From assembly GCF_000243335.1 (NCBI RefSeq), contig NZ_JH597773.1:1915550-1979549 (forward strand): a stretch of 64,000 nt of DNA, given 5' to 3'. The notes under the pieces were generated by a model that worked only from the letters and a program-made list of their open reading frames with translations, was not told where the DNA came from and searched no databases. This DNA comes from Leptonema illini DSM 21528 (GTDB taxonomy: Bacteria; Spirochaetota; Leptospiria; Leptospirales; Leptonemataceae). Below, piece after piece: positions 10,121-56,935 of the stretch. Position numbers and translations under genes: made by a program. Each line of letters opens with the position of its first letter. The stretch's first letter is position 1.

Positions 10121-10148
10121 GCCGTAGCCTGGAGAAGAGAGGAATCCA

Positions 10149-10844: not shown

Positions 10845-11446
10845 ATATGAAACGTTATACAGTACTGGCCTTTTCGGCCGCCCTGCTGGCCTCGTGCAAC
10901 TACTCGGGCAATAAGTCAGGCGCTCATTATTTCCTCGACATGCATGATAACATGGCTGTCGAGGCGCAGGAAGAGGACCTTTCGACTCTGAATCGTAGCT
11001 TCGACGGCACCTATGCAAAAGGCGCTGATAACATCGAAGTCTGGTCAGGGCCTGGCGCCGGTCTTCGTGTTCCACCTCAGGGCACGGTTCCGCGCAACTA
11101 TCAGCCCTACCTTTATGATAGCGGCGACTTCGAAACGCCGGCCCGTGAGCTGAAGAATCCTCTGATGGCGACGGCTGAAGTTCTGAAGAACGGACAGAAG
11201 CAGTATAACATCTACTGCGGCGTCTGTCATGGACAGCTCGGTCATGGCGACGGCCCCGTTACGCCTCGTTTTGCCGACATCCCTGCTCTTGCAGGAGGCA
11301 AGTCGCAGGTGCTCGACTGGGAAGACGGCAAGTTCTTCCATATCATAACCGTCGGCCGCGCACGGATGAAGCCGTATGCCGCTCAGATCTCTCCCGAGAA
11401 CCGCTGGGCGATCATTCACTACATCCGCCTGCTTCAGAAACAATAA
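10841..11446 (+). CDS. actE: Alternative Complex III subunit ActE, monohaem cytochrome c lipoprotein
   Basis: 201 residues from a GTG that overlaps the actD stop; the ATG at 10847 is an equally good start. A signal peptide ends in the lipobox LLASC, so the mature protein is lipid-anchored. One haem site, CGVCH (Cys 126 from the GTG), is followed by a late Met-containing segment RMKPYAAQI, a candidate axial Met. ActE is the electron exit of Alternative Complex III and would hand electrons to the cytochromes encoded downstream. Confidence 0.92.
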   Translation: MNMKRYTVLAFSAALLASCNYSGNKSGAHYFLDMHDNMAVEAQEEDLSTLNRSFDGTYAKGADNIEVWSGPGAGLRVPPQGTVPRNYQPYLYDSGDFETPARELKNPLMATAEVLKNGQKQYNIYCGVCHGQLGHGDGPVTPRFADIPALAGGKSQVLDWEDGKFFHIITVGRARMKPYAAQISPENRWAIIHYIRLLQKQ

Positions 11447-11458
11447 GGAGTTATTGCA

Positions 11459-12718
11459 ATGCATCTTCCCGGTAATGATAAACTGGAGTTCCGCATCTCT
11501 CCGATGTTCCGGAACGTCGCTCTGGGCCTGATGGGCCTGGGCCTACTTCTGATCGCGTATCAGATCATCGCTCCCTGGCATGGCTCAGTTCCGCATGAGG
11601 AAGGCCATGGTTACAGCAATCCGCGTCTTTTCATGTCGATGAACCTGGCGCTTCTTGTCGGTATTCCCGTCGCCCTGGGCGGTATCTTCTTCACCGCGCT
11701 GCACCACCTTTCGGGTGCGGCATGGAGCACGACCGTCCGTCGCCTGTCCGAGTCCTTCTTCTGGTCTCTTCCGGTGCTTCTTGTCTTCCTGGCCGTCGTT
11801 CTCTTCGGCATGAAAGATGTGTTCCACCACTGGGCGACCTACGTTCCCGGTAGCGAACCGAAGGACGCGCTTCTCGAAGTGAAGGCAGCTTACCTGAACC
11901 AGACGTCCTTTATAATCAGGAACATCGTTATCTTCCTGATCTGGATCGGCTTCGGCTTCCTTTTCTGGAAGACCTCTGTAAAACAGGATGCTGACGGTGA
12001 GTTCAAGCATACGTCGCTTCTTGTGAAGCTCTCTGCCGGCTTCATGGTCGTCTTCGGACTGACGCTGTCGGTTTCGTCCTGGGACCTTGGCATGTCGGTG
12101 GAACCGCACTGGTTCTCGACGATGTGGGCGGTTTACTTCTTCACCGGCCTTGGACTGAGCGTCTTCGCCGCCATGATCCTGTGGATCTGGTATCTGAAGC
12201 GTGCCGGCTATGTTGCCGAATCCGTGAACACCGAGCATATCCATGACCTCGGCAAATGGCTGTGGGGCTTTACGGCCGGCTGGGCTTACATCGCCCTCGG
12301 TTCGCAGTTCCTTCTCATCTGGTATGCGCACATTCCCGAAGAGACGATCTTCTACCACACTCGTATGTATAACGACGATATGACCTACAACGCATGGGGT
12401 TTCATGTCGCTCGTCATCGTCATGCTGCGCTGGATTCTTCCTTTCTTCCTGCTGATCAAGCGGGAATGGAAGCGTAACCTGAACTGGCTGGCCATCAACG
12501 CCATCGTCGTTCTTGTCGGTCAGGTGCTCGATATGTACTGGGTGCTTTATCCGACGCTGGACGGCGGCCACTTCATCTGGCCTTCGATTCAGGAACTCGG
12601 ACCTCTGCTTCTGCTGGTCGGCGCCTTCATGCTGTCCACGGCATGGGGACTGAGCCGTGCGAAGCTGATCCCGGTTAAGGATCCGCGACTTGAAGAGTGC
12701 CTGCACTCCCATCATTGA
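11459..12718 (+). CDS. actF: Alternative Complex III subunit ActF, integral membrane protein
   Basis: 419 residues with about ten transmembrane helices and the ActC/ActF-type pattern, including the WDLGMSVEPHWFSTMWAVYFF segment here seen as SVEPHWFSTMWAVYFFTG. ActF is the second large membrane subunit of Alternative Complex III, homologous to ActC; it has no cofactor. It follows actE by 12 bp, with a ribosome-binding site AAGGAG before its ATG. Confidence 0.92.
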   Translation: MHLPGNDKLEFRISPMFRNVALGLMGLGLLLIAYQIIAPWHGSVPHEEGHGYSNPRLFMSMNLALLVGIPVALGGIFFTALHHLSGAAWSTTVRRLSESFFWSLPVLLVFLAVVLFGMKDVFHHWATYVPGSEPKDALLEVKAAYLNQTSFIIRNIVIFLIWIGFGFLFWKTSVKQDADGEFKHTSLLVKLSAGFMVVFGLTLSVSSWDLGMSVEPHWFSTMWAVYFFTGLGLSVFAAMILWIWYLKRAGYVAESVNTEHIHDLGKWLWGFTAGWAYIALGSQFLLIWYAHIPEETIFYHTRMYNDDMTYNAWGFMSLVIVMLRWILPFFLLIKREWKRNLNWLAINAIVVLVGQVLDMYWVLYPTLDGGHFIWPSIQELGPLLLLVGAFMLSTAWGLSRAKLIPVKDPRLEECLHSHH

Positions 12719-12735
12719 TCGAAGAAGAGGAACTC

Positions 12736-13668
12736 ATGAACTACAGGAATACGATCATCGGCAGCATGGCAACGATCGCCCTGCTTGCCTCGTGCAAGAA
12801 AGAGACTCCGATCTATGAAGCGACCGCAGAGGCACTTCACAACGGTTCTCTCTATTACAACGTTTCTGAGGCGAACTGTAAGTCCTGCCACGGAACGGAT
12901 TGGAACGGCAACGGGCCCGAGGCCCGTTCTCTGAAAGAACAGGGACTGGCCGTTCCCGATTTCACAGCCGCTCTGTCTCCCGACAAAACGGTGCTGGATT
13001 ATTTCAAGGCGATCACGATCGGCACCGAGAAAACGAAATCTCTGCCGTCGGCTCATGCCTACCAGAGCCATACGGACCGCTCTCGCTGGGCGATGGCGAA
13101 CTTCCTCTATTCGCTTGGCAAGCCGTCCTCTGACGAAGCTCGTCGCAAGACGGCAAGCGAAGCGGCTATGAAAGAGATTCAGGCCGCCTATTCGAATAGC
13201 CGTCGCTGGTATATGGGCGATAACAAGCCTTCAGCAGAAAGAGAAAAAGCGCCTGCTCTTGAGGCCCTTCTTTCGAAGGCCGGATTCACGCCGAGCAGCG
13301 AGATCTCCGTCGTTCCCGTTTCGGATTCGCGTCGCGAAGGCGCCTTTCATGCACAGGACAGCCAGGCAGAGGGATATGCTCTCTATAAAAGCAACTGCCA
13401 GTCCTGCCACGGCGTATTCGGCGAAGGCTCTCAGGGAGCCGTTCATCTCGGCGCCCTGCCCGGTGAAGGCGAAGGCAAAGGCGGCATTCCGCGCCTGAAG
13501 CCCGTTCATGCCTCCATCCGTGACCTGGCCGAGGTCGGCGCCCTTTCAGCCGGAGCTCTGAGCTCCGCACACAACGATAAGGATGCGTTCGGACAGAAGT
13601 CGCATGCTCTGACTGAAGAGCAGTGGGAGCTTCTGGCCGATTACATTAAATCCATCACCGGAAAGTAA
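12736..13668 (+). CDS. Diheme cytochrome c lipoprotein of the act operon
   Basis: 310 residues from the ATG at 12736, chosen because GAAGAGGAA lies just upstream and a lipoprotein signal peptide (lipobox LLASC, Cys 20) follows. Two cytochrome c domains are visible: CKSCH (Cys 48) and CQSCH (Cys 221), joined by a charged linker. A likely role is electron transfer in the periplasm between ActE and the next carriers. It lies 17 bp behind actF and 2 bp ahead of the CcoN-like gene, so it is certainly co-transcribed. I know no fixed name for it. Confidence 0.85.
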   Translation: MNYRNTIIGSMATIALLASCKKETPIYEATAEALHNGSLYYNVSEANCKSCHGTDWNGNGPEARSLKEQGLAVPDFTAALSPDKTVLDYFKAITIGTEKTKSLPSAHAYQSHTDRSRWAMANFLYSLGKPSSDEARRKTASEAAMKEIQAAYSNSRRWYMGDNKPSAEREKAPALEALLSKAGFTPSSEISVVPVSDSRREGAFHAQDSQAEGYALYKSNCQSCHGVFGEGSQGAVHLGALPGEGEGKGGIPRLKPVHASIRDLAEVGALSAGALSSAHNDKDAFGQKSHALTEEQWELLADYIKSITGK

Positions 13669-13670
13669 CC

Positions 13671-15077
13671 ATGATACAGACAGATCGTTATTCCAAATCC
13701 ATCGTGTATTTCAAGAACGCCGGTATCGTGTGGACCTTTCTCGGTCTTACAGCCGGACTGCTCAATGAAATGCAGATGATGTTCTCCGTTCCGGGCAGCG
13801 ATTCTCCGCTCTCATACGGCCTTCTCAAGGCCATCGCTGCCAATATGACCATCTTCGGCGGTTTTCTGTCGTTCTTCCTGGCCTATGCTCTGCGCATTCT
13901 GAATGCAGAAGGCGGCAAGCAGAAGATTGATATGATCGCCCGTGTGTCGTTCTTCCTTCTTCAGATCGGTCTGGGCATCGGTCTTGTGTTCATCGCCGCC
14001 GGTTATGCCGACGGTCGTGAATACGGCGAGATGAACTTCCACACCGACAACATGATCCTGCTTTCAATCGCCATCGTGCTGGGCCTTTCGATCTTCAATC
14101 TGAACGGACAGAAGCTCTCTGCTGCCGCTCAATTCCAGCTTGTGACGCTTTCGGGCATGGTCGTCTCGTTCTTTCTCGGCAACTTCGGATTCCCGAATTC
14201 GCTGATTACGGCCGTCGCTCCGACGTCGGGCATCCAGGACGCCGTCGTGCAGGAATACTACCGCATGGCCGTGCTGATGTTCTTCGTCTATCTGCCGCTT
14301 CTCACCATCCTGTATCAGGCTGTGCCCGAGAAGTTCGGCGTTGAGATTCAGAGCCAGCCTGCCGTGCGCTTCCAGCTGCTTGTGTCGATTCTCTTTATTC
14401 CGCTTGCCGGCGCCGGAGCGCTTCTCTACTCCGTTGCTCCGCAAACGCTGCAGATCCTCGGCGCCTACACGTCGGCAGCCCTTGCCGTCTCTGTCGCTGC
14501 CGGAACGGTGAATCTTCATCAGAGTTTCAAGGCCGCTGCAGGCACAGCCTCTGACGGCGTTGTGGCAGCGATCCGACTGGGCGGTACGTTCCTGACGCTG
14601 ATCACGGTGCTGCAGTTCGTTACCCGACTGCCCTTTGCAAAACACTATCTGCAGTATACGGCATGGAACGACGCCGATCCGTTCTTCACCGCCACGACGG
14701 CCGGTCTGATCGTGCTCTTTGTAGCGGCGGCGATGATCTCGTCGAACGGCAAAAACGGTCCTTCGGGCTGGGTGCTGGCCGTGCTCTCGACGGGCGTGCT
14801 TCTGATTCTTCCGGTTACGCTGATCCAGGGCCTGCTTGAAGGCATGGCCGCTCTTGGTATGACCGAAGACGGAGCCGCTCTGAAGAATCCGTCCTGGGCA
14901 GCCGTTTCGACGGTCAGCTCCTTTGTAAAAGGCGGAACCGCTCTTCAATACGTCGCCTCGCTGAACGGAGTGATCCTGCTTGCGAAGCTTCTGATCTTTG
15001 TCGCCTTCTTCCCCATTATGGGATCGTTCTTTGAAGAAGGCGATGCCGCTCTCACAGCTGAGAGCAAGGCAGCTTGA
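13671..15077 (+). CDS. CcoN-like cbb3 oxidase subunit I homologue lacking all haem and copper ligands
   Basis: 468 residues, about twelve transmembrane helices. Its neighbours (ccoO, ccoP-like) and local alignments place it with cbb3 subunit I: LLKAIAANMTIF matches the RPLHTNAVIF helix, QEYYRMAV the QWWWGHNAV helix, LAGAGALLYSVAP the AGPHHLLYTALP helix, and YTAWNDADPFF the YTDWTIGHVH helix. Every ligand is replaced: low-spin haem His by Ala56 and Phe338, CuB His by Arg198, Gly249 and Ala250, haem b3 His by Asp336; the cross-linked Tyr is Ile243. The protein has only three histidines (124, 283, 325). It cannot reduce oxygen. A structural scaffold for the adjacent cytochromes is my inference. 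Confidence 0.85.
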   Translation: MIQTDRYSKSIVYFKNAGIVWTFLGLTAGLLNEMQMMFSVPGSDSPLSYGLLKAIAANMTIFGGFLSFFLAYALRILNAEGGKQKIDMIARVSFFLLQIGLGIGLVFIAAGYADGREYGEMNFHTDNMILLSIAIVLGLSIFNLNGQKLSAAAQFQLVTLSGMVVSFFLGNFGFPNSLITAVAPTSGIQDAVVQEYYRMAVLMFFVYLPLLTILYQAVPEKFGVEIQSQPAVRFQLLVSILFIPLAGAGALLYSVAPQTLQILGAYTSAALAVSVAAGTVNLHQSFKAAAGTASDGVVAAIRLGGTFLTLITVLQFVTRLPFAKHYLQYTAWNDADPFFTATTAGLIVLFVAAAMISSNGKNGPSGWVLAVLSTGVLLILPVTLIQGLLEGMAALGMTEDGAALKNPSWAAVSTVSSFVKGGTALQYVASLNGVILLAKLLIFVAFFPIMGSFFEEGDAALTAESKAA

Positions 15078-15088
15078 GGGAGAAACAC

Positions 15089-15733
15089 ATGAAATCGATC
15101 TTTGAAAATCCCATCAAACTGGTCGGTGCGACGATCGTTCTCTCTGTCGCATCGTTTGCAGCCGTCGCTGTGCTGCCCTTCTGCGGACTCGATCTGCACG
15201 GAGCGCATGCACATACGCAGGCGCCCGAAGATCCGCTTGTTCTGAAAGGACATGAGGTTTACTACGAAGCCGGATGCCAGAGCTGCCATACGCAGAACAT
15301 CCGCCCGTTCAAGGCTGAGGTCGTGCGTTTCACAAACGTCGAGAAATACGCGAATACCTACAGCGCCGATGCGAAAGAACTCGTATTCTTCACGCCTTCG
15401 GTGATGGGCAGCCGCCGCATCGGACCGGACCTTTCTGCCGCCGCATCAAAATACACGAAGGAAGGCCTGACCGAGCTGCTACAGAGCAAAGAAGGCCTTC
15501 ATAGCTTCACGCATCTCTTTGCCGGCGAAGAGGCCGGTGGAAGCATGCAGCCTCTGCGTATGTCGTGGAAGATCCGCTGGATGATGAATGCCGGTATTCC
15601 CTTCTCTGATCCGTATCAGCGCGGCGTATTCGACCGACTTGACGAGTCCACCCGCGGCGACGCCCTTGTAGCCTATCTGCTCTTCCTCGGAAAGCGGAAC
15701 CTGTCCTACGAGTCGCAGTTCTACAAACAATAA
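15089..15733 (+). CDS. ccoO: CcoO-type membrane-anchored monohaem cytochrome c
   Basis: 214 residues from the ATG at 15089, preferred over a TTG at 15074 because GAGGGAGA lies before it. One N-terminal membrane helix (about 10-31) precedes a cytochrome domain with the CcoO signature GCQSCHTQNIRPFKAEV (Cys 63) and VMGSRRIGPDLS, and Met-containing GGSMQPLRMSW where CcoO has its axial Met. In cbb3 oxidases CcoO feeds electrons to CcoN. Here the partner CcoN-like protein has no cofactors, so electrons must pass elsewhere. It begins 11 bp after that gene. Confidence 0.88.
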   Translation: MKSIFENPIKLVGATIVLSVASFAAVAVLPFCGLDLHGAHAHTQAPEDPLVLKGHEVYYEAGCQSCHTQNIRPFKAEVVRFTNVEKYANTYSADAKELVFFTPSVMGSRRIGPDLSAAASKYTKEGLTELLQSKEGLHSFTHLFAGEEAGGSMQPLRMSWKIRWMMNAGIPFSDPYQRGVFDRLDESTRGDALVAYLLFLGKRNLSYESQFYKQ

Positions 15734-15745
15734 GAGGAAGCGAAT

Positions 15746-16252
15746 ATGTCTGAGCATAACAACAATCCTGAAACTAAGTCGACTCCGGGCTGGGTCGCTT
15801 ACCTCTTCTCTCTCGTTCTGGTCATCGGTATCGGTGCGACCATCTATCAGGTGGGATTCCGCGCACAGAGCCGCCAGAGCATGATTCGCGAAGAGATGGG
15901 AACGGAAACGATCAAACCGACGATTGAGATCATTCCCGTGCGTGACGCGAAGGCGATCGCAAACGGGGAGGCCACTTACAAGCGTGCCTGCTTCGCCTGC
16001 CACGGAATGGATCTTGAGGGCGGCGTCGGCCCGAACCTGAAAGACACGGAATGGTATCATCCGCCGTCCAAAGAGACGAACCTCTACAAGCTCGTTTCTA
16101 CGGGCATCTCGGGTGCACAGGCCGTTAAGGGCGTACCGATGCCTCCGAAGGGCGGCGCTGCAATTTCGGGCATCGAGGTCTGGGAGGTTATCTACTATCT
16201 TTCCAGCCGTAACCCCTCGATTGAAAAAGACGCCGTTTCAAACGTGAAGTAA
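15746..16252 (+). CDS. CcoP-like membrane-anchored cytochrome c with one haem
   Basis: 168 residues. Residues 14-36 (PGWVAYLFSLVLVIGIGATIY) form one membrane helix preceded by a short hydrophilic N-terminus, as in CcoP. A single cytochrome domain follows, with CFACH (Cys 82) and a late GVPMPPKGG with the axial Met. CcoP of true cbb3 oxidases has two haems, so this is a half-length version. It is the last gene of the operon, with a terminator 25 bp downstream. Likely a periplasmic-facing electron carrier. Confidence 0.8.
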   Translation: MSEHNNNPETKSTPGWVAYLFSLVLVIGIGATIYQVGFRAQSRQSMIREEMGTETIKPTIEIIPVRDAKAIANGEATYKRACFACHGMDLEGGVGPNLKDTEWYHPPSKETNLYKLVSTGISGAQAVKGVPMPPKGGAAISGIEVWEVIYYLSSRNPSIEKDAVSNVK

Positions 16253-16276
16253 GCGACGTTCGACCTTTTTATCTGG

Positions 16277-16307
16277 AAAAAGCCGGGTGATAAGCCCGGC
16301 TTTTTTT
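16277..16307 (+). terminator. Intrinsic terminator of the act-cco operon
   Basis: AAAAAGCCGGG (16277-16287), a 7-nt loop, then CCCGGCT running into seven T residues (16301-16307). A stem of seven strong pairs plus the T-run is a standard Rho-independent terminator and defines the 3' end of the ten-gene operon. The A-run on the other side would let it act weakly in the opposite direction as well. Confidence 0.93.
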
Positions 16308-16377
16308 ACTTTGAGGGGTTAGGACGGCTCGGTATCAAATTGTTTTTAAATTCCCGCCAGCGAACGTGAAAAGCCGA

Positions 16378-17496
16378 TCACATCTCAAACGGAATAAACT
16401 CGTGGGGGCCGTAGACCTCGGCTCGCAGATCATCCAGCATACCGTACATCTCCCAGGCGTCCTGAGCGCGCTGCATGGGGCTTTCTTTTAAGAAGAATCT
16501 GATGAAGCGCTGTATGCGTTCATCGACTTCGGCCGGCATCTCAGCCGTCTCGGGATTCCCGCCCAGAGCATAGACCATACAGCGAGCGGCCGAGAACAGA
16601 TCAGAGGAAGGTAGAGGCGGCTTCTTTTCAGCAACCTCGGGAGCGCTGTATTTCTCGTTCAGGATGCGAAACCCCTGCCCGGTCGATGCAGGCTTGTAGA
16701 TCGAGCACGTCCAGTCGATCAACCATACGTTATGATCTGAGGGCCGTATCATAATATGAGCGGGATCGACGTTGCCGTGCAGAATGCCCTGACTGTGCGC
16801 ATAGCCGAGCACCGATAGCAAACGCCGGAACAGCCAGATGATATGCCGCGGTGGGATGCCCTTCACGTATTTCTCGCGCACGGAATGCAGGTCATAGCCG
16901 TCGATGCGGCGCATCACAAGGCCGATGCGGCCGTCGTCGGTCCGGAAATCATCCATGAGCACGGGCAGATGCTTCGTCTGCACCCCTTCGCCGGCATGAA
17001 GCAGCTTGATGATACGCGCTTCGTTTTGCATGAGATCGTTATCCGCCGGATCTTCGACCAGCTTGATGACGATCTTTGCCGCCTCGCCCTCGCCTTCTTC
17101 GCATACTCCCTCGAATACCGTAGCAAGATCACCCTGTGCCAGCGCCTTCTCGATACGATAGTGCCGTCGCGTCGTCGCAATTGAAGCGGCGGAATTCGCC
17201 TCGGCGCCTCGCTGCGGAGCCCTGCCGTATTCGCCCGACTGAACCTTGCTCAGGGCCTGCTCATAGAATGCTTGCAGTAAGGCATGCGCCTCTGTTGCCA
17301 GCTCCTTTGCATCGGCATCACCGGGATACAGATCGGGATCGGTCAGCTGACTCAGGCGCAGGAAGGTCTTTTTAATCGTCGCTCGCAACTCGTCGCTCGA
17401 CGTTCCGGCAGCCGGGATTCCAAAGACATCTTCTGTGCGCACCGCATCCTTGAGCGATGCAAGCACCTGATTTAATTCTGCAATTACGGAAGGCAT
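16378..17496 (-). CDS. Protein kinase-like pseudokinase with helical N-terminal domain
   Basis: 372 residues. Residues 35-85 are helical and weakly recall a J-domain (helix, then TDPDLYPGD where HPD would be). Residues 112-345 are a kinase fold: VIK with Lys145, Glu159 in the C-helix, and MRRIDGYDL at the hinge. The catalytic loop reads HGNVDPAHIMI instead of HRDxKxxN, so the catalytic Asp is Asn242, and DFG is DWT (Asp261). Loss of the HRD Asp suggests no ordinary phosphotransfer; ATP or client binding remains possible. No transmembrane segment. It faces the act operon tail to tail. Confidence 0.78.
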   Translation of the reverse strand: MPSVIAELNQVLASLKDAVRTEDVFGIPAAGTSSDELRATIKKTFLRLSQLTDPDLYPGDADAKELATEAHALLQAFYEQALSKVQSGEYGRAPQRGAEANSAASIATTRRHYRIEKALAQGDLATVFEGVCEEGEGEAAKIVIKLVEDPADNDLMQNEARIIKLLHAGEGVQTKHLPVLMDDFRTDDGRIGLVMRRIDGYDLHSVREKYVKGIPPRHIIWLFRRLLSVLGYAHSQGILHGNVDPAHIMIRPSDHNVWLIDWTCSIYKPASTGQGFRILNEKYSAPEVAEKKPPLPSSDLFSAARCMVYALGGNPETAEMPAEVDERIQRFIRFFLKESPMQRAQDAWEMYGMLDDLRAEVYGPHEFIPFEM

Positions 17497-29108: not shown

Positions 29109-30263
29109 TCAGATACGCACGAATATCTGATGCCGTGTGCGCTCGATGTCGTATTCGGTCAGCACGCGATCCTCGGCGAAGCGCCCCATCCTTTTGCGCA
29201 GCTCGGCATCACGACTGAGATCGATGATGCTCCGTGCGAGGCTTTCATAGTCGTCGGCTCTGTGCAGAATGCCCGTAATCTGATGCCTGATGATCTCGTC
29301 GACTCCGGCTCCCATTCCCGAAACGGTGGGCAGCGATGTATAACCTGCTTCAAGAAGCGAGGCGCTGTAGCCGCTGGCCTGATTGCGCGGTTGCCCGCCG
29401 GGATGAAAATAGAGATCACTGAAATAATAAAGAGCGCCGACTTCGAGGTCTTCAAGAAATCCGACAAGGAAAACCGTATTCTCGAGCCCGTGCAGACCGA
29501 TCAGTTCTTTCAGGTAACCGTATTCCGGTCCCGAACCGCCGATGATCCACGCATAGGATTTGCGATCGATTCCCATGCGGTCCAGATGTTCAATGACGCG
29601 AAAGATGCGGTCCAGGTTCTTATCACGCGTCAGCGGTCCCATCGAGAGAATGCGAAACCTCGATTCCACGTCTTTCAATCGATCCATAATCTGCGATTTC
29701 GCCCGCTTGATCAAACGGCGATCCCAGCGAGCATGCAATCCAAAGGGGACGCTGACGATGTTGTCGCCGCGCAGGCCTTTCATGACGGCGAGTTCGTGAA
29801 AGTAATTTGAGAATACGAAGATGTTCTGCGCCTTCTTCAAGAAACGATGCAGGTTCAGATGCAGGAGCGATAGCTGATCAAGGTCAAGAGGCTGCAGGAT
29901 CACCGAGTACGGGATTCCCGATCTGTATATCTGCGGCACAAGTCCGGCCGTTCGCCCGTAGAGATTGCCAAGAAGAATATGATCAGGCCGCTCCTTTTCC
30001 AGTAGCTGCTGAAAGCGAGCGGCATACTCCCGATTGCGAGCCGGAGCGGGAACAAGGAAGTTCGGTATGGGCACCGAGATACGGTGGATCGGCATGTTCA
30101 GGGCATGATCGAAAGACTGCCGCTTCCCTTCATCTGAAAGCATCGGAGATGCGGTCACCAGAACTACGGCGTCTTCTTGAGAATGGACGAGGCCCGTATT
30201 GAAATTCTCCATGCCGCCGGGGTCAGGCCCAAAAAAATCTGTAATAAACAGGATTTTTTTCAT
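29109..30263 (-). CDS. Glycosyltransferase, family 4 (GT-B fold)
   Basis: 384 residues from the ATG at 30263 (a TTG at 30278 is the other choice). The Rossmann-like start KKILFITDFFGPDPGGMENF is typical of GT4 enzymes, with FGPDPGGM facing the acceptor. The C-terminal donor domain has RILSMGPLTRDKNLDRIFRV, AWIIGGSGPEYGYLKELI and the E-x7-E region around ASLLEAGYTSLPTV. It probably adds a sugar to a surface polysaccharide or lipid. It is divergent from the lipoprotein gene at 30306. Confidence 0.92.
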   Translation of the reverse strand: MKKILFITDFFGPDPGGMENFNTGLVHSQEDAVVLVTASPMLSDEGKRQSFDHALNMPIHRISVPIPNFLVPAPARNREYAARFQQLLEKERPDHILLGNLYGRTAGLVPQIYRSGIPYSVILQPLDLDQLSLLHLNLHRFLKKAQNIFVFSNYFHELAVMKGLRGDNIVSVPFGLHARWDRRLIKRAKSQIMDRLKDVESRFRILSMGPLTRDKNLDRIFRVIEHLDRMGIDRKSYAWIIGGSGPEYGYLKELIGLHGLENTVFLVGFLEDLEVGALYYFSDLYFHPGGQPRNQASGYSASLLEAGYTSLPTVSGMGAGVDEIIRHQITGILHRADDYESLARSIIDLSRDAELRKRMGRFAEDRVLTEYDIERTRHQIFVRI

Positions 30264-30305
30264 ACTCGATGCATCCAATCGCCCGGTTTGCCACCATGCG
30301 AAAGT

Positions 30306-32393
30306 ATGACAGCAGCTTTTTTTCGCGTTCCGCGATTGTCCACTACAACGCCGATCCGGCCTCTGATTCTTCTACTGCTATGGCTATGCGCCTGCAAGCC
30401 GACCGTCGATCCTGCCTTGCTCGGCCTTCAGGAAGAGCCTTCGAAGCTGATAGTATCGTTCGGCACGGAGCAAAACGTCATTACAGGATCGATCTATGTG
30501 CGATCACGGCCGGAGTTCGACGGATGTCTTCATGGTCGACCTGCTTTCTATCGTGCGCTTGAACAGGGACTTAACGTCAGCTATTGTTCCTCCTCTCTTG
30601 ACGCTTCTTTTCAGGCCTTCGTCGATGCCTCTTTCGAACAGGGTAAAACAGCGTATGACAGGCTGGAACGCGATGACATCGCCGCCTACATTCTCTCGGC
30701 CGCTGCACTCAGAGATACAATCGGATCAATCCGCCTCCTTTACTGCGAGCCCGACTGCAATGACGGCCTGCGGCTACTTGAAAGCGAGATAACGATCGTC
30801 TCCAGAGCCTTTCATACGCCAGATGAACGCGTACTACCGCGCCGATTCTATGATAGCGATATGTCGATCGCAATCACGGACCGCATCTGGCTATTATACA
30901 GACTGCATGATTCGCGCATCCTTGCGATTCGCATCGGCGACGCCGCACAGGCAGAGCAGCTGTACCAATTCCTGACCGTCACCGCGCCGCGGACTGTGAC
31001 GCATATCTTTCAGGATGCCGCCGGGGCGTCATCTGTAACCGGAGCGTATTCCGGCGAAACGGGCGGCGCCGGTAACGAACGACTGATCCTGTCATCTCAA
31101 TCGACTCCCGTAAAGCAGAGCGTCGTCGTCAAGGGCACCACGTTTACATTACTGCTTTTCGCTAATTCATCCGTCGTGCTTCGCCGCGACGATCCGCCAG
31201 GCTTTCGATTTCAGTCCATTCCCGAAATCAAACTCGCAGAGAACGGAGCGATCGTTAACCTGAATCCCGAACAGTATACGCCCGAACTCGCCGTCCCGGG
31301 GCGTGTTGCACTCCGGCTTCCCGACGTATCCTCTTTTAGCAAAAGCGGCATCTGCTTATGGTCGTCACCCTGCTCTCCTGAAGATATTCCGATCAGCATC
31401 GCAGAGCAAATAGATTCGCAGAGAATGGTAAACGACAACATACCGGTTTGCGGCGTCGACGATCTGACCGTTACAGAAATCAACCCCTTCGGAGTCATGA
31501 CTTCATCCGAAACGTCGATTCAGATCGGGGGTAAGTTTATCGAAATCAGTGTCAGTCGTAACTGCGCCAATCGATCGCTCCATTTTCGGCAAACCGACTG
31601 GACGGCCGGATTCCCCGATTCTCTGGACGCAGGTATATTGATCCTCGCCGCCGACCGAACGCTTTTCGATATTTCGGTCGCAGAGAGAACGATACTGCGA
31701 CGTCTTAAAGCGGCACCGCTCGTCGTTGCAGACGCTGCGCGAGAAAAGACGATAGCCGTCGATGATAAGGCCGTCTGGATCTACGGGTCGGCCGATGCCG
31801 TCGGTATCAGGCGAGTTCATTCGCTACGCGTTGCGCCGTCGGGAATCGTATACCACGGTATGAACTGTTCAGGATTGCGACCTGATCTCTGTCCCTCTCA
31901 TGCGATGACTCCTGGAACCGATACAGCGCAACCTGCTTCATGGCCGACGGCTCGAATATCCGAAATCCTTCCCTTTCTTGACGGACGCTTCATCGAACTC
32001 TACTGCCAGGATTGCACAGGAGAAAGCGGCCGACTGGATCTTTTCATCCATCGACTTTCGGATAATCGCGAAGAGCGCTATGTGCTGCCTCAATCCGACA
32101 TGAGAATCATCACGCTCACGCCGACGTCTACTTGCGGCACCCGGAGCAATCGCGTCGCCGATCTGTATATTCCTGCATCGGCGGCGATCTACAGGCTCGG
32201 CCTGATCGACAGTGACGGCGTTTTTCAACAGTTCGATCAGTTGGAAATCGATACTGCGACGTATAACCTTTTGCGGCGAGAGAAGAGCAGCCTGTCGGTT
32301 ACGGACGACGGAGTCGTATTGACCGACAGGGCTCTATCAGGATGCGAGATTCGAGCCACGCCGGGTATCGTTGCGTTCGGAGGCGCTCTATGA
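30306..32393 (+). CDS. Large lipoprotein with two possible lamin-tail-like modules
   Basis: 695 residues from the ATG at 30306, chosen because it gives a lipoprotein signal peptide (lipobox LCAC, Cys 31). Two segments resemble the start of lamin-tail domains: LTVTEINPFGV...GGKFIEI (about 385-415) and ISEILPFLDGRFIELY (about 555-570), the FIEI/FIELY strand being typical. Cys-rich patches suggest disulfides. No enzyme motif is seen. Its stop overlaps the start of the next gene (ATGA), so the two are coupled. Outer-membrane or surface location is likely. Confidence 0.7.
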   Translation: MTAAFFRVPRLSTTTPIRPLILLLLWLCACKPTVDPALLGLQEEPSKLIVSFGTEQNVITGSIYVRSRPEFDGCLHGRPAFYRALEQGLNVSYCSSSLDASFQAFVDASFEQGKTAYDRLERDDIAAYILSAAALRDTIGSIRLLYCEPDCNDGLRLLESEITIVSRAFHTPDERVLPRRFYDSDMSIAITDRIWLLYRLHDSRILAIRIGDAAQAEQLYQFLTVTAPRTVTHIFQDAAGASSVTGAYSGETGGAGNERLILSSQSTPVKQSVVVKGTTFTLLLFANSSVVLRRDDPPGFRFQSIPEIKLAENGAIVNLNPEQYTPELAVPGRVALRLPDVSSFSKSGICLWSSPCSPEDIPISIAEQIDSQRMVNDNIPVCGVDDLTVTEINPFGVMTSSETSIQIGGKFIEISVSRNCANRSLHFRQTDWTAGFPDSLDAGILILAADRTLFDISVAERTILRRLKAAPLVVADAAREKTIAVDDKAVWIYGSADAVGIRRVHSLRVAPSGIVYHGMNCSGLRPDLCPSHAMTPGTDTAQPASWPTARISEILPFLDGRFIELYCQDCTGESGRLDLFIHRLSDNREERYVLPQSDMRIITLTPTSTCGTRSNRVADLYIPASAAIYRLGLIDSDGVFQQFDQLEIDTATYNLLRREKSSLSVTDDGVVLTDRALSGCEIRATPGIVAFGGAL

Positions 32394-33808
32394 AACGGAT
32401 CTATTCATCGATGCTTGTTTTCGTAACTGTCGTTCTGTATGTCAGCCAACCGCTTTACGCCTCTCCCGTTTCTGTTACGATGGTGATGGCGGGAGCGACG
32501 GAGCGGAACGAAAAAGAGACGACGTCCATCGCACAGAGACAGCAAGCCGTCGATATCGGCCTGAAGGCGTCCATGCCCCATACATCCGATGATGCCGGCT
32601 TCGCGTTCGTCTACGGCTCCGACGCCGTGTTGCGCTTTTTTCTTTCGCAGTACCCGGCTGAGGATCGCCAGCAGGTGCAATTTCTGGCGACGGGGCCCGC
32701 TTTTACAGGCATTCGCATCGCTCCGTTCTCTTATATGCTTCTGGGATATGCTCCCATGGATCTCTGGTCGAATATCGGGTCGACTCAGGGAAGAGATGCC
32801 GCTCTGAGGCGTAGCAGTTATCCAGGGCTGCATCTTCATTTTCAACATGGCGATTTCGGCAGTCTTCGTATCACTCCTCTTGCCTTTATCGATCCGCCGG
32901 GCCGATTCGCCGATTCTCCCTTTTTTCTCTCTACCATTCAGCAGAGCCTATCGAAGCGTCAGACAGAAGGCCGGCATGACGACTCCCATGCGTCGGACCG
33001 TATCAATCATCAGATACGGTATGATCTTACGGTGGATTGGTTCTTTATGGGCCTGCACTACCAAACGGCGAACTTCACGAAAACCGGACCGTCCGATCGA
33101 TCGTCGCTTTCCGTCGACCATACCGGACTTGATCTCGGAGTAATTACCGACTCTATCGACATTCTCATCGGCGCCGTGCGGTCCTCCGGATCGTTAACCA
33201 TGGCGGGTGCGGCCGCAGTTCCCGTAATGGGAATGCAATATCGCCTGAGCGCGAAGGCCCGGCTTTTCGAGCGCTATGGCGTCTCGATTTTCGCCATGCG
33301 CTCGGAGGCCGATCGACCGGCCGATGCCTACACAGATCGCCGTGTCGGCTTTGTTGATTACGGCGCTCCGTCCACCGATCTGCCTCTGCTGGCCGACGCC
33401 CAGTTAAACGGATTGCCCTGCGTCCCCGTTCCTGAGGATCGCTGTGACGGATTGATCGTGCAGAACACTCCGCCCTTTCGTTATCCGGGAGACTACGGAG
33501 ATCTTACCCTGCACTATCAGGGAGATCAATGGGGCATCGCGCTGCGGGCGGGCATCATCGTGCCCTTTCGCTACGAGCAGACCACGGACGGAGCGGAACG
33601 AGAACGAGAGATCTACAACGACCATGCCGGATGGGCGGCGGAGCTTCAGCTATCGCCCGATTTCATGAAAGGATCCGTCGCTCTTACTTACTCCGCTCTC
33701 TATGATCGAGACGAGGAACGCAAAAGGCGTCTGCAGGCTCAATCCATCTCAGTCTGGTTCCGTCTGCCCGTTCCCATCGAACATGGATCGCCGTCGAATA
33801 CGAGATAG
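32390..33808 (+). CDS. Exported protein, predicted outer-membrane beta-barrel
   Basis: 472 residues from the ATG at 32390, which overlaps the preceding stop. Signal peptide (1-25, ending YVSQPLYA) followed by alternating polar and aromatic strands such as LHLHFQHGDFGSLRITPLAF and WGIALRAGIIVPF, and ending in a short tail after SISVWFRLPV. The strand pattern and lack of membrane helices fit a barrel of 10-16 strands. No family recognised. Coupled to the large lipoprotein, it may be its outer-membrane partner. Confidence 0.65.
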   Translation: MKRIYSSMLVFVTVVLYVSQPLYASPVSVTMVMAGATERNEKETTSIAQRQQAVDIGLKASMPHTSDDAGFAFVYGSDAVLRFFLSQYPAEDRQQVQFLATGPAFTGIRIAPFSYMLLGYAPMDLWSNIGSTQGRDAALRRSSYPGLHLHFQHGDFGSLRITPLAFIDPPGRFADSPFFLSTIQQSLSKRQTEGRHDDSHASDRINHQIRYDLTVDWFFMGLHYQTANFTKTGPSDRSSLSVDHTGLDLGVITDSIDILIGAVRSSGSLTMAGAAAVPVMGMQYRLSAKARLFERYGVSIFAMRSEADRPADAYTDRRVGFVDYGAPSTDLPLLADAQLNGLPCVPVPEDRCDGLIVQNTPPFRYPGDYGDLTLHYQGDQWGIALRAGIIVPFRYEQTTDGAEREREIYNDHAGWAAELQLSPDFMKGSVALTYSALYDRDEERKRRLQAQSISVWFRLPVPIEHGSPSNTR

Positions 33809-33876
33809 CTCAGACGCTATGGGGCTCGATTCTTCTGTAGCGAAATCCATACAAAAATCCGTTTCAAGGAGGAACT

Positions 33877-35610
33877 ATGAAACGCCTGCTATTTTGCTCT
33901 CTGATGCTGGCCGTTGCGTGCAGCAAGAGAACCGATGATGCGCTTGCCTTTCTTCTGGAAAGTCCGACGCCTGTTTACCTTTTCACGATGCCCGAGGCCT
34001 CCGACGTTGAGCGGTTCCGGCTTCGATCTGAAATCGTTCGCCGCGTCGATGCGGCCCGAAATGAGATCGTATTCTGGTTCTACGGGCTTGATGATCCGCA
34101 AATCATGGATGCTCTAAAACGGGCCGCCGATCGCGGCATTCAGTTAACTCTTACCGGATCATCGGATCAGAATTATGAGGGTCTTGAAAAACGAGAACTG
34201 CCCTACAGGCTTCGCGCAAAAACGGGGCTGCAACACGCCAAGCTTATGCTGATCGATAGAACGATACTCATTTCTGGAACAGGAAACTTCACACGCAGCG
34301 GGATGATGTATAACAACAATCTCTTCTTTATCTCGCGCATACCAGAGGCAGTTGCGACGACGATACTGAATTCTCTGGAGTTTGAAGAACAGGGCGATAT
34401 GCCGATCTCGTGGCAGGATAACGGCGCCCTATTCCGTATGATGATCGCTCCTCTTCACGGGCGCACGATTCAATCCGAACTGGTACAGAGTGTTCTGCGC
34501 GGGCGCTCCGTACGCGTGATGATTTTCAGCTTCACCGACGCAGTAATGGCCACGGCCATGCTGGTGGCCGCTCGCAACGGCACGCATGTTGCCGCCGTCA
34601 TCGAATCCAGCGGAAGGGACGGGATGTCACCGAAAGATATGCTGCATGAGGTTTACGGAGCGGCGGGTTCTTCTCCTTTCTTTTTATATGCAGATGGAAA
34701 CGAACGCGTATATTATGCTGAAGACGGAGCAAAGCATGGAGGAAAGCAACATCATAAGACGATGATCGTGGACGATCGCATCCTCACCGGATCGTTCAAC
34801 TACTCATTGAGCGCGCGCGATTCGAATCTGGAAACCTTTTTTGAGATCAGGGATCCGCAGGCGTTGCCTCTCTTTCACGCAGAGTTTGAACGATTGCAGG
34901 CGCTCTCACAGCCCGTTGCGCGCCCGCCGTATAACTCCGCGCCGTTTACGGAAGGCCTGACGTACGAGAACGGTCGCCTTTGCATGCCGGAACGGCAGGT
35001 GCAGCTTATGCGAGGACACGGCGCTTTCTTTCGCGGACTGCTCTTTCGAGACGCGAACTGCGCTCCCTCCTCCGCATCGGCGGGCTTCCAGAGCTCCGCT
35101 GAGTTTGATCCCGGGGCGACCGGCGTTCTGTCGTCGGGCCGGGCCCTGGTCGATTATCGAGAGGCTGAGGTTTCAGAGTCCCTTCCCGAGCCTATGACGG
35201 ATGGCCTGCTCCCTCTCCCATTTTATTGCGATAGCCCGCACTGCGATCCATGTTCGGCTGGACTGTGTCGCAGTGTGACGCTCGATCGGGTTTCTTTGAG
35301 CGGGGGCTGGCTACGACGCTCGATAGAGAGTCCAGTAAGACGGCTGCTTCTTCTGCATCGTAGCGGTCTGGAAGAGGCCGAGATCATCGAACAAAATGGC
35401 AGCTTCCTGCGTTTCAAAGCACAGGCGACTTCAAGTGCACTGCTCTTCTTCTATACGGAGGATCAGCAAGGCAACGGGCAAATCGAAATCGCCTGTGCGG
35501 CCAGGACGCCGCCGGCCGCTCTGAAACGCATCCTGTTGGCCCTATTATGGTTCTATCCGTCCCGGTTTCCGGCGCCCGTTCCCTGCACGACGCCTGACGA
35601 ATCCCTCTGA
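33877..35610 (+). CDS. Phospholipase-D-like lipoprotein with two HKD motifs
   Basis: 577 residues after an excellent ribosome-binding site (AGGAGG at -6). Lipobox AVAC (Cys 15). Two PLD motifs are complete: QHAKLMLIDRTILISGTGNF (first half) and HHKTMIVDDRILTGSFNYS (second half), so a phosphodiesterase of the PLD superfamily (nuclease or phospholipase) is expected. The last about 200 residues are Cys-rich and unrecognised. Being lipid-anchored and exported, it would act on extracellular or periplasmic DNA or lipid. Confidence 0.88.
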   Translation: MKRLLFCSLMLAVACSKRTDDALAFLLESPTPVYLFTMPEASDVERFRLRSEIVRRVDAARNEIVFWFYGLDDPQIMDALKRAADRGIQLTLTGSSDQNYEGLEKRELPYRLRAKTGLQHAKLMLIDRTILISGTGNFTRSGMMYNNNLFFISRIPEAVATTILNSLEFEEQGDMPISWQDNGALFRMMIAPLHGRTIQSELVQSVLRGRSVRVMIFSFTDAVMATAMLVAARNGTHVAAVIESSGRDGMSPKDMLHEVYGAAGSSPFFLYADGNERVYYAEDGAKHGGKQHHKTMIVDDRILTGSFNYSLSARDSNLETFFEIRDPQALPLFHAEFERLQALSQPVARPPYNSAPFTEGLTYENGRLCMPERQVQLMRGHGAFFRGLLFRDANCAPSSASAGFQSSAEFDPGATGVLSSGRALVDYREAEVSESLPEPMTDGLLPLPFYCDSPHCDPCSAGLCRSVTLDRVSLSGGWLRRSIESPVRRLLLLHRSGLEEAEIIEQNGSFLRFKAQATSSALLFFYTEDQQGNGQIEIACAARTPPAALKRILLALLWFYPSRFPAPVPCTTPDESL

Positions 35611-35638
35611 ATACCTGATTTGCCCGAAGTCAAATGCC

Positions 35639-36496
35639 GTGAAGGGACCGATCGCTACTGCCGATAGTCATGAAGTGAGATCCCGGCTGGTTCAAATTCT
35701 GTTGCTTTGCTCTGGATGCCTTCTATCTGCCCAACTGCTTGCAGACAGGCCTGAAGACCAATACGTTCAAATCTTCTATAGAACGGATCTGAACGGAGAG
35801 ATTGACAACGATGAAGAAGGCGTACGCGGTCTGCAGCCTTACGGTCGCTATCAATCCAGAGGTCGCCACCTCTGCTTGAACTCCGACTGCATCGTATCGA
35901 TCCATCATGGTCGCCTTGATCGCGCCAATCCGGCCGATCGTCCCGAATCTGAGAAAGACAGCGGCGATCGACTCGGGCGCATTAAAGAGTCGAATCTTTT
36001 TGATCTTTTCGTTCCGCTTCCCGGCACAGCATCCACGACTCCGATCCAGGACGATTACTTCAGTGCGAGAACGCTGCGACCGGGAGAACATCGTCGGCAG
36101 CGGCTTGGAAGTCTGCATCTGCTCTTTTATTCGTTACCCGATTGTTCGCATGAGTCGACGGCTCTGCTGAATCAGGTCTACAGGTCGCAGGCTGATGCCG
36201 ACCTCTTTGTCGTCTTCCTGCCCGATTCAGTAGCCGGCACATGCCTTCAATTCGAGTCGCCTGAAAATCCGTATCACTCCCTGTATGATCCTCCCGAGAA
36301 GCAGACGGCTCGCACACTTTTCCTCTCCAGAAGCGATCGCTTTCGCTATTACAGAGACCGGCGCGGTAGCTACCGATGTTCCGTTTCTGCTCCCCATCTT
36401 GCCCGCATCCGATTGCATTTTCGCGGACGACAGCTGCTCGGCGTAGAGGCCGCAGAAGAACGATTCAGAGAATCCGAGCGAATGTATCCTCTTTAA
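35639..36496 (+). CDS. Exported protein, weakly metallophosphatase-like
   Basis: 285 residues from a GTG. An N-terminal hydrophobic segment (about 17-35, ending LSAQLLADRP) is probably a signal peptide. VQIFYRTDLNGEID recalls the first strand of 5'-nucleotidase-type metallophosphatases (TNDLNG), but the following metal-binding motifs are not seen, so it would be a degenerate member if related at all. It follows the PLD-like gene by 28 bp and is the last gene of the exported-protein group. Confidence 0.6.
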   Translation: MKGPIATADSHEVRSRLVQILLLCSGCLLSAQLLADRPEDQYVQIFYRTDLNGEIDNDEEGVRGLQPYGRYQSRGRHLCLNSDCIVSIHHGRLDRANPADRPESEKDSGDRLGRIKESNLFDLFVPLPGTASTTPIQDDYFSARTLRPGEHRRQRLGSLHLLFYSLPDCSHESTALLNQVYRSQADADLFVVFLPDSVAGTCLQFESPENPYHSLYDPPEKQTARTLFLSRSDRFRYYRDRRGSYRCSVSAPHLARIRLHFRGRQLLGVEAAEERFRESERMYPL

Positions 36497-54975: not shown

Positions 54976-55686
54976 ATGTTCTCTTTTTTACGAAATAAAA
55001 AGCCGCGAACGATCTTTATCGGCGATGTGCATGGTTGCATTGATGAACTGCAGGCCATGTGCAAGCGCCTGCGCCTGTCGCAGGAGGATCGCATCGTCAT
55101 GCTTGGCGATCTGATCAATCGCGGTCCCGATCCTGCTGCCGTCGTCGCCTTTGTCGCCGAAAAGAAATTCGACTGTCTGATGGGCAACCATGAAGACGAA
55201 TACTTGAAAGAATACAAACACGAAGAGAAGTATGCCGCTCTTCGCGAAGAGCTTGGACTTGATCTGCATCTCTGGATCGAAGAGAGGCCGCTATGGATCG
55301 ATCATCCGTCCTTTTTATGCGTTCACGCCGGATTGAAGCCGGGCGCGCTTCCCGCATCGAATGACAGGCGTTATTTACTGAACATCCGCACGTGGGATGG
55401 CGAAGGCCGCGATATTAAAACTCCGTCGAATCCAGCATGGTACGAGTATTATACGCAGCCTCGCCCCGTTTTCTACGGACACTGGGCACAGCAGGGATTG
55501 ACGATCCGTCGCAACACCGTCGGTCTTGACTCCGGTTGCGTATATGGCCGGGCGCTTTCGGCCTGGATTCTTGAAGAGGAGCGGCTCGTGCAGCAGAAGT
55601 CGAAGCGGGTCTATTATGTACCGCCGGCGCTTCGCAAGAAGGTGGTTACAGATAATACCGAAAGCCGTAGCAGAGCTTCTCGCTGA
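54976..55686 (+). CDS. Metallophosphatase, ApaH/PrpE-like
   Basis: 236 residues. FIGDVHGCIDELQAM (GDVHG), MLGDLINRGPDPAAVV (GDLxxRG), LMGNHEDEYL (GNHE) and FYGHWAQQGL give the complete PPP-type calcineurin fold. This group includes diadenosine tetraphosphate hydrolases and Ser/Thr phosphatases; the sequence does not decide which. The last 41 bp overlap the end of the convergent cls gene. Confidence 0.85.
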   Translation: MFSFLRNKKPRTIFIGDVHGCIDELQAMCKRLRLSQEDRIVMLGDLINRGPDPAAVVAFVAEKKFDCLMGNHEDEYLKEYKHEEKYAALREELGLDLHLWIEERPLWIDHPSFLCVHAGLKPGALPASNDRRYLLNIRTWDGEGRDIKTPSNPAWYEYYTQPRPVFYGHWAQQGLTIRRNTVGLDSGCVYGRALSAWILEEERLVQQKSKRVYYVPPALRKKVVTDNTESRSRASR

Positions 55687-56935
55687 TCTTCTGCCACAGG
55701 CTGCGTCGCCTCCACTCTGACAGATGGATCTCGCGAGCCTCGTTAATATCGATTCCCCATTGTAGAATCAGGCTTTTCGCGAGATCAGGATCGGTACACT
55801 GCACCATCACCTCCTGATTGTGCAGAAAGCTACGGTAGTCGAGATTGCCCGATCCAATAACGGACACATCGTCGATCAGACTCTGTTTCGCATGAAATAC
55901 CCTGCCCTCCATCTCAAAGACACGGACTCCGGATCGTAACAGCGCATCATACGTAGCCCGACCGGCCTGTCGCGCCGACCAGACGTCGGTCGTGCCGGCG
56001 GTAAGAATGCGCACATCGACCCCACTGCGCGCCTTCATACGCAGCAGGCGCGTCAGACGATGGTTGGCCACAAAATATGGGGAGCTCAGGAACATCTGCT
56101 TCTTTGCCGATCGCAGCAGCCTGAAATAGTTTCTTCTATAAGAAGCACGGTCACGGCGAAACAGCGTCGTATAGAGATTGGGCTCGGTCAGTATCGAACG
56201 ACGATGCCACTGCTTCAAGCGAACACGAAGAGCGGCAATGGACCTGATAGACTTTGCTCTTACTCTGAGCATATTCGACAACGACAGCGGGTACACTCCG
56301 TAACGCACGGATTGAAAGAGCAGAAGCATACCCGCGAAGAGAAACCGGAAGAAGGAGCGATTACGATCGTTCTTCTCGATACGCATCATCGTATCGCGCC
56401 AGCGCGAAGGGCCGGACAACCGATGACTGTTCTCATCCTTGATATTCATGCCGCCGACGTAGCAGATCCTGCGATCGATGAGTACGATCTTACGGTGATT
56501 ACGTCTGTGCATGCCCGACCGAAAGATTGAGAAAAGGCTTACAGGTTTATACACAGCCAGCTCGACTCCGGTTCCTGCCAGAAACGCATAAATAGCCGGC
56601 AGGGCCGAACGACTGCCGATGCCGTCAAGCATCAGCCGCACATGCACGTCGTGATTGACCGACAGATCTTTCAATACCGAAAGAAGATGCGTGCCCGAAT
56701 GATCGTAGTTGAAGATGTAGAACTCCATCAGCACGGACCGCTCAGCCCGTCGCAGATCGTCAATCAGCGCATCACAGAAATGGTCTCCTTCGAAAAAGAG
56801 CTGAACGGGTGTCTCGGGCCGCATATCAGAGGACAGCTTCGGAGACTGAGACAGCGAATCAATTCCTTCTTTTATCAGGCTCAGGAAGCCCGCGAAACGT
56901 AAAAAAGGTTGTAAATACGTGAAATAAAGATTCAC
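55646..56935 (-). CDS. cls: Cardiolipin synthase-type phospholipase D enzyme
   Basis: 429 residues. Two HKD motifs: HRRNHRKIVLIDRRICYVGG and HAKQSLIDDVSVIGSGNLDY. No long N-terminal membrane pair, so like ClsB/ClsC. It joins phosphatidyl groups to give cardiolipin. Its 3' end overlaps the phosphatase gene on the other strand. Confidence 0.88.
   Translation of the reverse strand: MNLYFTYLQPFLRFAGFLSLIKEGIDSLSQSPKLSSDMRPETPVQLFFEGDHFCDALIDDLRRAERSVLMEFYIFNYDHSGTHLLSVLKDLSVNHDVHVRLMLDGIGSRSALPAIYAFLAGTGVELAVYKPVSLFSIFRSGMHRRNHRKIVLIDRRICYVGGMNIKDENSHRLSGPSRWRDTMMRIEKNDRNRSFFRFLFAGMLLLFQSVRYGVYPLSLSNMLRVRAKSIRSIAALRVRLKQWHRRSILTEPNLYTTLFRRDRASYRRNYFRLLRSAKKQMFLSSPYFVANHRLTRLLRMKARSGVDVRILTAGTTDVWSARQAGRATYDALLRSGVRVFEMEGRVFHAKQSLIDDVSVIGSGNLDYRSFLHNQEVMVQCTDPDLAKSLILQWGIDINEAREIHLSEWRRRSLWQKISEKLCYGFRYYL

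Follow-up and report, generated by a model that had tools for sequence, protein, structure and literature searches.

The spirochaete Leptonema illini DSM 21528 possesses a conserved gene unit, LIP-BAR-PLD, which is confined to two families and is followed in this organism by a fourth gene, here called gene 4. The four consecutive plus-strand open reading frames (ORFs) are located at positions 30306-36496 of a 64,000-nucleotide stretch (hereafter the window; contig NZ_JH597773.1, positions 1,915,550 to 1,979,549) of a 4.52 Mb genome assembled in three contigs. Judging from sequence and fold comparisons, we consider the chances about even that the locus encodes a surface unit which breaks down a phosphodiester polymer outside the cell, with DNA or RNA as the likeliest substrate, and imports the products. 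The computed results comprise the co-conservation of the genes, the barrel and lamin-tail folds of BAR and LIP, the intact active site of PLD and the descent of gene 4. A nucleic-acid substrate is preferred mainly because PLD enzymes are independently paired with lamin-tail domains (LTDs), an outer-membrane transporter and 5'-nucleotidase parts.

Conservation of the LIP-BAR-PLD gene order

The 48 genomes of the class, including that of L. illini, were searched with PLD, LIP and BAR, and the retrieved regions were tabulated by gene order; ORF starts in these tables were assigned mechanically, so that gap values are approximate. In 22 genomes LIP, BAR and PLD follow one another in this order on a single contig, and five more have a compatible order that is cut by contig ends. 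Within the own family of L. illini (22 genomes), the three genes are found in the same order, on one strand and on one contig in 15, L. illini included, and the visible pieces fit the order in four others (G004, G007, G010 and G019), in which the sets are cut by contig ends. Another family member (G020) has fragments of LIP and PLD only, and the unit was not found in G002 and G003 (0.9 and 2.2 Mb). The unit is intact in seven of the eight genomes of a second family of the order; in the eighth, the contig stops within LIP. The other 18 genomes of the class yielded no full LIP or BAR and gave two weak BAR matches (E 1.1e-5 and 2.1e-4) and short matches of the LIP profile over the LTD region. The LIP profile matched 45 of 296 genomes of the phylum at E 0.001; outside the two families these matches are weak and, in the rows listed, lie over the lamin-tail region. 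For comparison, the LIP and BAR family profiles match the L. illini genome itself at E 1.5e-145 and E 3.4e-95, respectively.

The proteins of the second family are only 18–23% (PLD), 15–17% (LIP) and 12–15% (BAR) identical to those of the window, and the flanks of the unit differ between the families: a divergent family GT4 glycosyltransferase gene lies upstream in all 16 loci of the own family in which this side can be seen, and in none of seven loci of the second family. The four-base overlap of LIP and BAR recurs in the loci of nine relatives. The preservation of the gene order at such low identity, far beyond chance, together with the overlaps in many members, indicates that LIP-BAR-PLD forms an operon. 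The initial annotation of this locus had made the joint conservation of the four genes a test of its reading, which LIP-BAR-PLD passes in both families, whereas gene 4 is a looser, family-specific partner: in addition to the window gene, homologues were found in 16 genomes of the own family, directly after PLD in nine and a few genes away in others.

Protein families and folds

PLD contains two PLDc_2 halves (PF13091, E 2.4e-25 in Pfam), which prove to be homologous in a profile comparison (98.1%, E 9.5e-14) and carry the HKD motifs HAKLMLID...GTGN at 120 and HHKTMIVD...GSFN at 292. The two HxK(x)4D...G(S/T)xN half-sites of the PLD superfamily are complete in all 27 aligned sequences, the window protein included; one relative (L066) has X in its PLD and gene 4 sequences. 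The closest matches of the PLD family profile among all PDB sequences are MitoPLD/Zucchini (E 6.7e-20), NucT (1.3e-19) and Nuc (8.4e-18), and no cardiolipin synthase was found within E 0.01. PLD shares with these nucleases the HKD sites and, with NucT, export and membrane association. It differs in having two half-sites in one chain, as opposed to the homodimer with one HKD motif per chain of NucT and Nuc, and in its lipobox, its additional C-terminal domain and the GTGN ending of the first motif. Most of the non-spirochaete PLD relatives found are short, mainly 340–500 amino acids (aa), and showed no LTD motif in a scan. The C-terminal domain (aa 355-577) has conserved cysteines and showed no relation to the LTD or the PLD halves; its identification as a lamin-tail module was rejected (≤0.2% with the LIP modules). 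In three related genomes, a very long protein of up to 1792 aa is encoded directly 3' of PLD (L052:2086-7464, L054:11930-17287 and L055 from 14765). The L. illini genome has further PLD-type loci: another two-half gene on the minus strand of the window at 55646-56935 (PF13091, E 3.5e-24), which is cardiolipin-synthase-like in size and which we take to be a cardiolipin synthase gene, and two PLDc_2 loci elsewhere.

Gene 4 appears to encode a degenerate 5'-nucleotidase-type protein, the more variable partner of the unit. Its family profile (12 rows) matches that of six intact 5'-nucleotidases over 166 columns (97.0%, E 1.3e-10; 96.6%, E 5.4e-10 when the window protein is included), and six other profiles gave ≤0.4%. 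The similarity to UshA-type 5'-nucleotidases concerns the N-terminal domain of gene 4; the DxH and GNHE motifs, which are catalytic and bind metal, have been lost, GNHE being kept in none of 17 sequences. An earlier comparison with few templates had given 0.2 to 10.5%, and significance appeared only after rows were added on both sides, so the probable link merits independent repetition. Searches of PDB sequences with gene 4 gave nothing meaningful, and searches of Pfam with ten family members nothing relevant.

The initial annotation had described LIP as lamin-tail-like and BAR as a barrel. For LIP, the claim is correct in fold, though not by way of the Pfam domain of its relatives. Pfam has no match in the window protein, which falls short of the PF00932 gathering score, and LTD is called at E 0.1 in 7 of 23 aligned LIP sequences. 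In two of six scanned relatives the call, which runs from position 826 of 999 in one and 837 of 1009 in the other, falls in a C-terminal domain that is missing in the window LIP, which is shorter than most relatives and stops at position 724 of 979 in the family model. Kinship of this C-terminal domain with modules 1 and 2 was rejected (≤0.4%), although Pfam calls it LTD. The two modules are related to each other (hhalign 95.5%, E 1.5e-8). In the predicted LIP structure (predicted template-modelling score, pTM, 0.42), module 2 is seen as a domain at about 546-655, for which the top 11 PDB rows in VIA-align are all lamin immunoglobulin-like domains (Z 7.8–9.2), among them 1ifr (Z 9.0, root-mean-square deviation (rmsd) 2.5, 94 residues, LIP residues 546-649); the first non-lamin row has Z 7.4, a consistent though modest margin. 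A Foldseek list for the entire LIP model was left unused, since most of it consisted of multi-domain chains with high rmsd. The N-terminal domain was considered as a dead PLD domain because of its suggestive secondary structure and a weak fold match to 5bpi (Z 6.0, rmsd 5.2), and this was rejected at ≤1.2% in profile comparisons with the PLD halves.

The barrel prediction for BAR is supported by the model (pTM 0.69, mean predicted local distance difference test score 65.7; strands counted by hand) and by fold comparison, which assigns it to a predicted OprD/AlgE-type fold. OccK7 (4frt; Z 22.4, rmsd 3.7, 316 residues) and AlgE (5iyu; Z 21.9, rmsd 3.9, 345 residues) are tied as the closest folds in VIA-align, and AlgE ranks first in Foldseek (E 1.5e-11). 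The window BAR has no match in Pfam.

LIP and BAR resemble two families that are already known in Leptospira, with no function stated. The NCBIfam model for LIC11755 family lipoproteins (NF047473) matches 17 of 23 LIP sequences, and that for LA_2168 family proteins (NF047476, LA_2168_fam) matches 14 of 26 BAR sequences. The window LIP, by contrast, reaches 17.2 bits where the cut-off is 300, and the window BAR has no match to its model. The LIC11755 model has 699 positions and may also describe the short LIP form. Since its cut-off is reached in none of the 48 genomes (best score 245.1), we infer the arrangement in Leptospira itself. In the available part of the respective papers, LIC11755 of Leptospira interrogans is a predicted outer-membrane lipoprotein on a list of vaccine candidates, where it stands without a predicted domain (PMC5406399), and LA2168 is a predicted barrel (PMC2387172). 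Literature searches for LIC11753-11757, LA_2167-2169 and the lamin-tail/PLD combination retrieved no functional study and no description of the three-gene unit, subscription papers being mostly outside their coverage.

Proposed function and alternatives

In the proposed mechanism we infer what the substrate is, that the proteins lie at the surface, which way transport runs and how each part is functionally coupled to the others. LIP would be an outer-membrane lipoprotein that binds or organises the substrate or a partner by means of its lamin-tail modules, and the lipid-anchored PLD, with two HKD half-sites per chain, would cleave phosphodiester bonds via a phospho-histidine intermediate, without a metal. 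BAR, an unplugged OprD/AlgE-type barrel, could then allow the entry of nucleotides or oligonucleotides into the periplasm; the dead 5'-nucleotidase relative encoded by gene 4 may bind nucleotides. NucT, one of the closest solved relatives of PLD, has been implicated in purine salvage, in addition to transformation, in the available part of the source (PMC5714352). LTD-bearing extracellular nucleases are known, such as ExeM (PMC6085458) and Xds (PMC6746945), and share with this locus a lamin-tail module and a secreted phosphodiester hydrolase. Their catalytic domain is, however, of the EEP and not of the PLD type, and in the window the LTD and the enzyme are separate lipoproteins with the barrel gene between them.

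PLD and LTD are also found joined. Several relatives have a second locus in which Pfam recognises a PLD fused to an LTD in one chain. The fusion was seen in nine of ten proteins and in one further protein; the ten had been selected by hand (long ORFs of spirochaete loci, two with a previously seen LTD-like motif and one short), and the count is no frequency. Locus L175 comes from a different family of the class and encodes in a row, at 9751-16392, a TonB-dependent receptor (PF00593, E 1.1e-32; plug, 2.2e-19), a 5_nucleotid_C protein (E 7.8e-23) and the PLD-LTD lipoprotein; it is likely an energised cousin of the window unit. The lipoprotein upstream of PLD-LTD genes is itself a PLD-LTD homologue (99.8% over 474 columns) in which the HKD sites are apparently lost. 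Apparent enzyme/pseudo-enzyme pairs of this kind are seen at L100:1609-4494, L104:697-3075 and L082:11349-13778, each upstream of an active-type PLD-LTD gene. The proteins of about 600 aa upstream of PLD-LTD paralogues were rejected as BAR homologues (15.4%, E 0.0017); Pfam is blank for one of them.

Several observations weigh against nucleic-acid scavenging at the surface. PLD and BAR are both acidic: PLD has a predicted isoelectric point of 5.7 (core 5.8), and BAR has a net charge of -10, which does not favour the passage of anions. BAR resembles OprD/Occ porins and AlgE in fold only, at about 7–12% identity. No match of the window PLD to a NucT or DrmC model reaches the curated NCBIfam cut-off (best NucT score 47.4 bits, cut-off 297), and the profile also matches, more weakly, 7e0m (1.3e-8), a Serratia enzyme named phospholipase, which we take to be the one whose authors are cited next. 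In the available part of their paper these authors themselves ask whether the enzyme is a nuclease (PMC8004604). Kinship with nucleases is compatible with a lipid substrate for PLD, and in contrast to its acidic character, NucT-type nucleases have been described, in part of the source, with a positively charged groove (PMC5714352). According to the available parts of the studies, the LTD of Xds is dispensable for activity and membrane association (PMC6746945) and that of ExeM largely dispensable (PMC6085458), so that the role proposed for LIP is weak. Our confidence is held at an even level because of the acidic PLD and BAR, the dispensable LTDs of Xds and, largely, ExeM, and the putative nature of the enzymatic activity.

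Lipases and cardiolipin synthases also belong to the PLD superfamily, and the initial annotation had named DNA or lipid as the substrate. This has been narrowed towards nucleic acid by the nuclease-like PLD, the descent of gene 4, the separate PLD gene of cardiolipin-synthase size and the L175 locus. It is unlikely, though deserving of weight, that PLD acts on outer-membrane or environmental phospholipids and that BAR takes up the products or serves lipid homeostasis. The superfamily membership, the membrane anchor suggested by the lipobox, the match to 7e0m and the cardiolipin synthase model TIGR04265, which matches 14 of 27 PLD family members (best E 1.4e-8), would all fit this explanation. 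Nuclease-type sequences, however, match about ten orders of magnitude better, the gene at 55646-56935 is a separate candidate for cardiolipin synthesis, and the 5'-nucleotidase theme of gene 4 and L175 would be unexpected. Rather improbable is the handling of a phosphodiester-containing surface polysaccharide or lipopolysaccharide, with BAR as an AlgE-like exporter and PLD trimming or transferring the polymer. The rank of AlgE among the closest folds and the GT4 gene upstream in the own family are in line with it, and so is LIC11753 of L. interrogans, which lies two locus tags away from LIC11755 and is named as a putative O-antigen ligase in the available part of one source (PMC13111663). On the other hand, OprD-type importers fit BAR equally well, the GT4 gene is divergently transcribed and does not accompany the unit in the second family, and the links to 5'-nucleotidases and a TonB receptor suggest a different function.

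Two explanations keep the nuclease and change its purpose. A role in DNA uptake for competence, or as an entry nuclease, with PLD processing transforming DNA and BAR forming the outer-membrane gate, appears very improbable: duplex DNA is, to our knowledge, too wide to pass through a barrel of the OprD type, and the association with a dead 5'-nucleotidase and with a TonB receptor speaks for a nutritional role, whereas NucT has been tied to transformation in Helicobacter pylori in the available part of the source (PMC5714352). The least probable is a defensive or counter-chromatin role, in which a surface nuclease would degrade the DNA of phages, competitors or host traps. Part of one source reports that two Vibrio cholerae extracellular nucleases aid evasion of neutrophil traps (PMC3764145), and the window PLD matches the NCBIfam model of the DISARM protein DrmC at E 1.8e-16. 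Identity with DrmC was rejected, since the score lies below the cut-off (60.4 versus 133 bits) and no other DISARM-like gene was recognised among the tabulated neighbours. Most of the related genomes in the family carry the unit, and many of these are environmental metagenome-assembled genomes, which argues against a host-specific device.

Returning to the scavenging of nucleic acids, a more specific version, to which we give somewhat less than even weight, is a dedicated foraging system across Leptospirales that combines a lamin-tail scaffold, a private 18-strand channel, a monomeric nuclease with two HKD motifs and, as binding partner, a dead 5'-nucleotidase. Such a system would do for nucleic acids what the polysaccharide-utilisation units of other bacteria do for polysaccharides, and it would provide a route for the uptake of purines or phosphorus from surrounding DNA or RNA. 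It would also give a function to the LIC11755 and LA_2168 families, two orphan surface proteins that become a testable machine once tied to an enzyme whose active site is intact, and place bacterial lamin-tail domains, whose role is unsettled, in a setting alongside a channel.

Locus layout and neighbouring genes

The ORFs and the sequence confirm the four exported plus-strand genes and the ATGA overlap of the first two that had been noted initially (Table 1), the export signals being judged by eye: lipoboxes in LIP (LCAC, Cys30) and PLD (AVAC) and type-I-like leaders on BAR and gene 4. Alignments of relatives show no variation at Cys30 of LIP or at Cys15 of PLD. The initial description of PLD as lipid-anchored with both HKD motifs intact also holds. 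LIP has an alternative TTG start at 30177, upstream of the ATG.

Table 1. Features of the LIP-BAR-PLD locus in window coordinates
Feature	Position	Strand	Description
GT4 glycosyltransferase	29109-30278	divergent, upstream of LIP	identified by Pfam/NCBIfam
LIP	30306..32393	+	lipoprotein, 695 aa from ATG at 30306; N-terminal domain and two related lamin-tail-like modules
Lamin-tail-like module 1 of LIP	31428..31805	+	about aa 375-500; motif LTEINPFG...GGKFIEI
Lamin-tail-like module 2 of LIP	31908..32300	+	about aa 535-665; motif ISEILP...GRFIEL
ATGA overlap, LIP stop/BAR start	32390..32393	+	read in the sequence
BAR	32390..33808	+	predicted outer-membrane beta-barrel, about 18-19 strands, OprD/AlgE-like fold in the model
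PLD	33877..35610	+	lipoprotein, 577 aa, Cys15; HKD half-domains at about aa 45-180 and 190-345; C-terminal domain 355-577
Gene 4	35639..36496	+	GTG start, 285 aa; probable exported, degenerate UshA-type 5'-nucleotidase (metallophosphoesterase) homologue without catalytic motifs

Predicted promoters and terminators at the locus show no surplus over shuffled sequence. Elsewhere in the window, ARAGORN called a selenocysteine tRNA on the minus strand at 12886-12968, which lies inside an ORF on the opposite strand and may be spurious. Gene 4 is followed on its 3' side by an ORF that we take to be coaE-like, a SPOR-domain ORF and a FFLEELY-motif protein (both by Pfam/NCBIfam), and a presumably ppk-like ORF.

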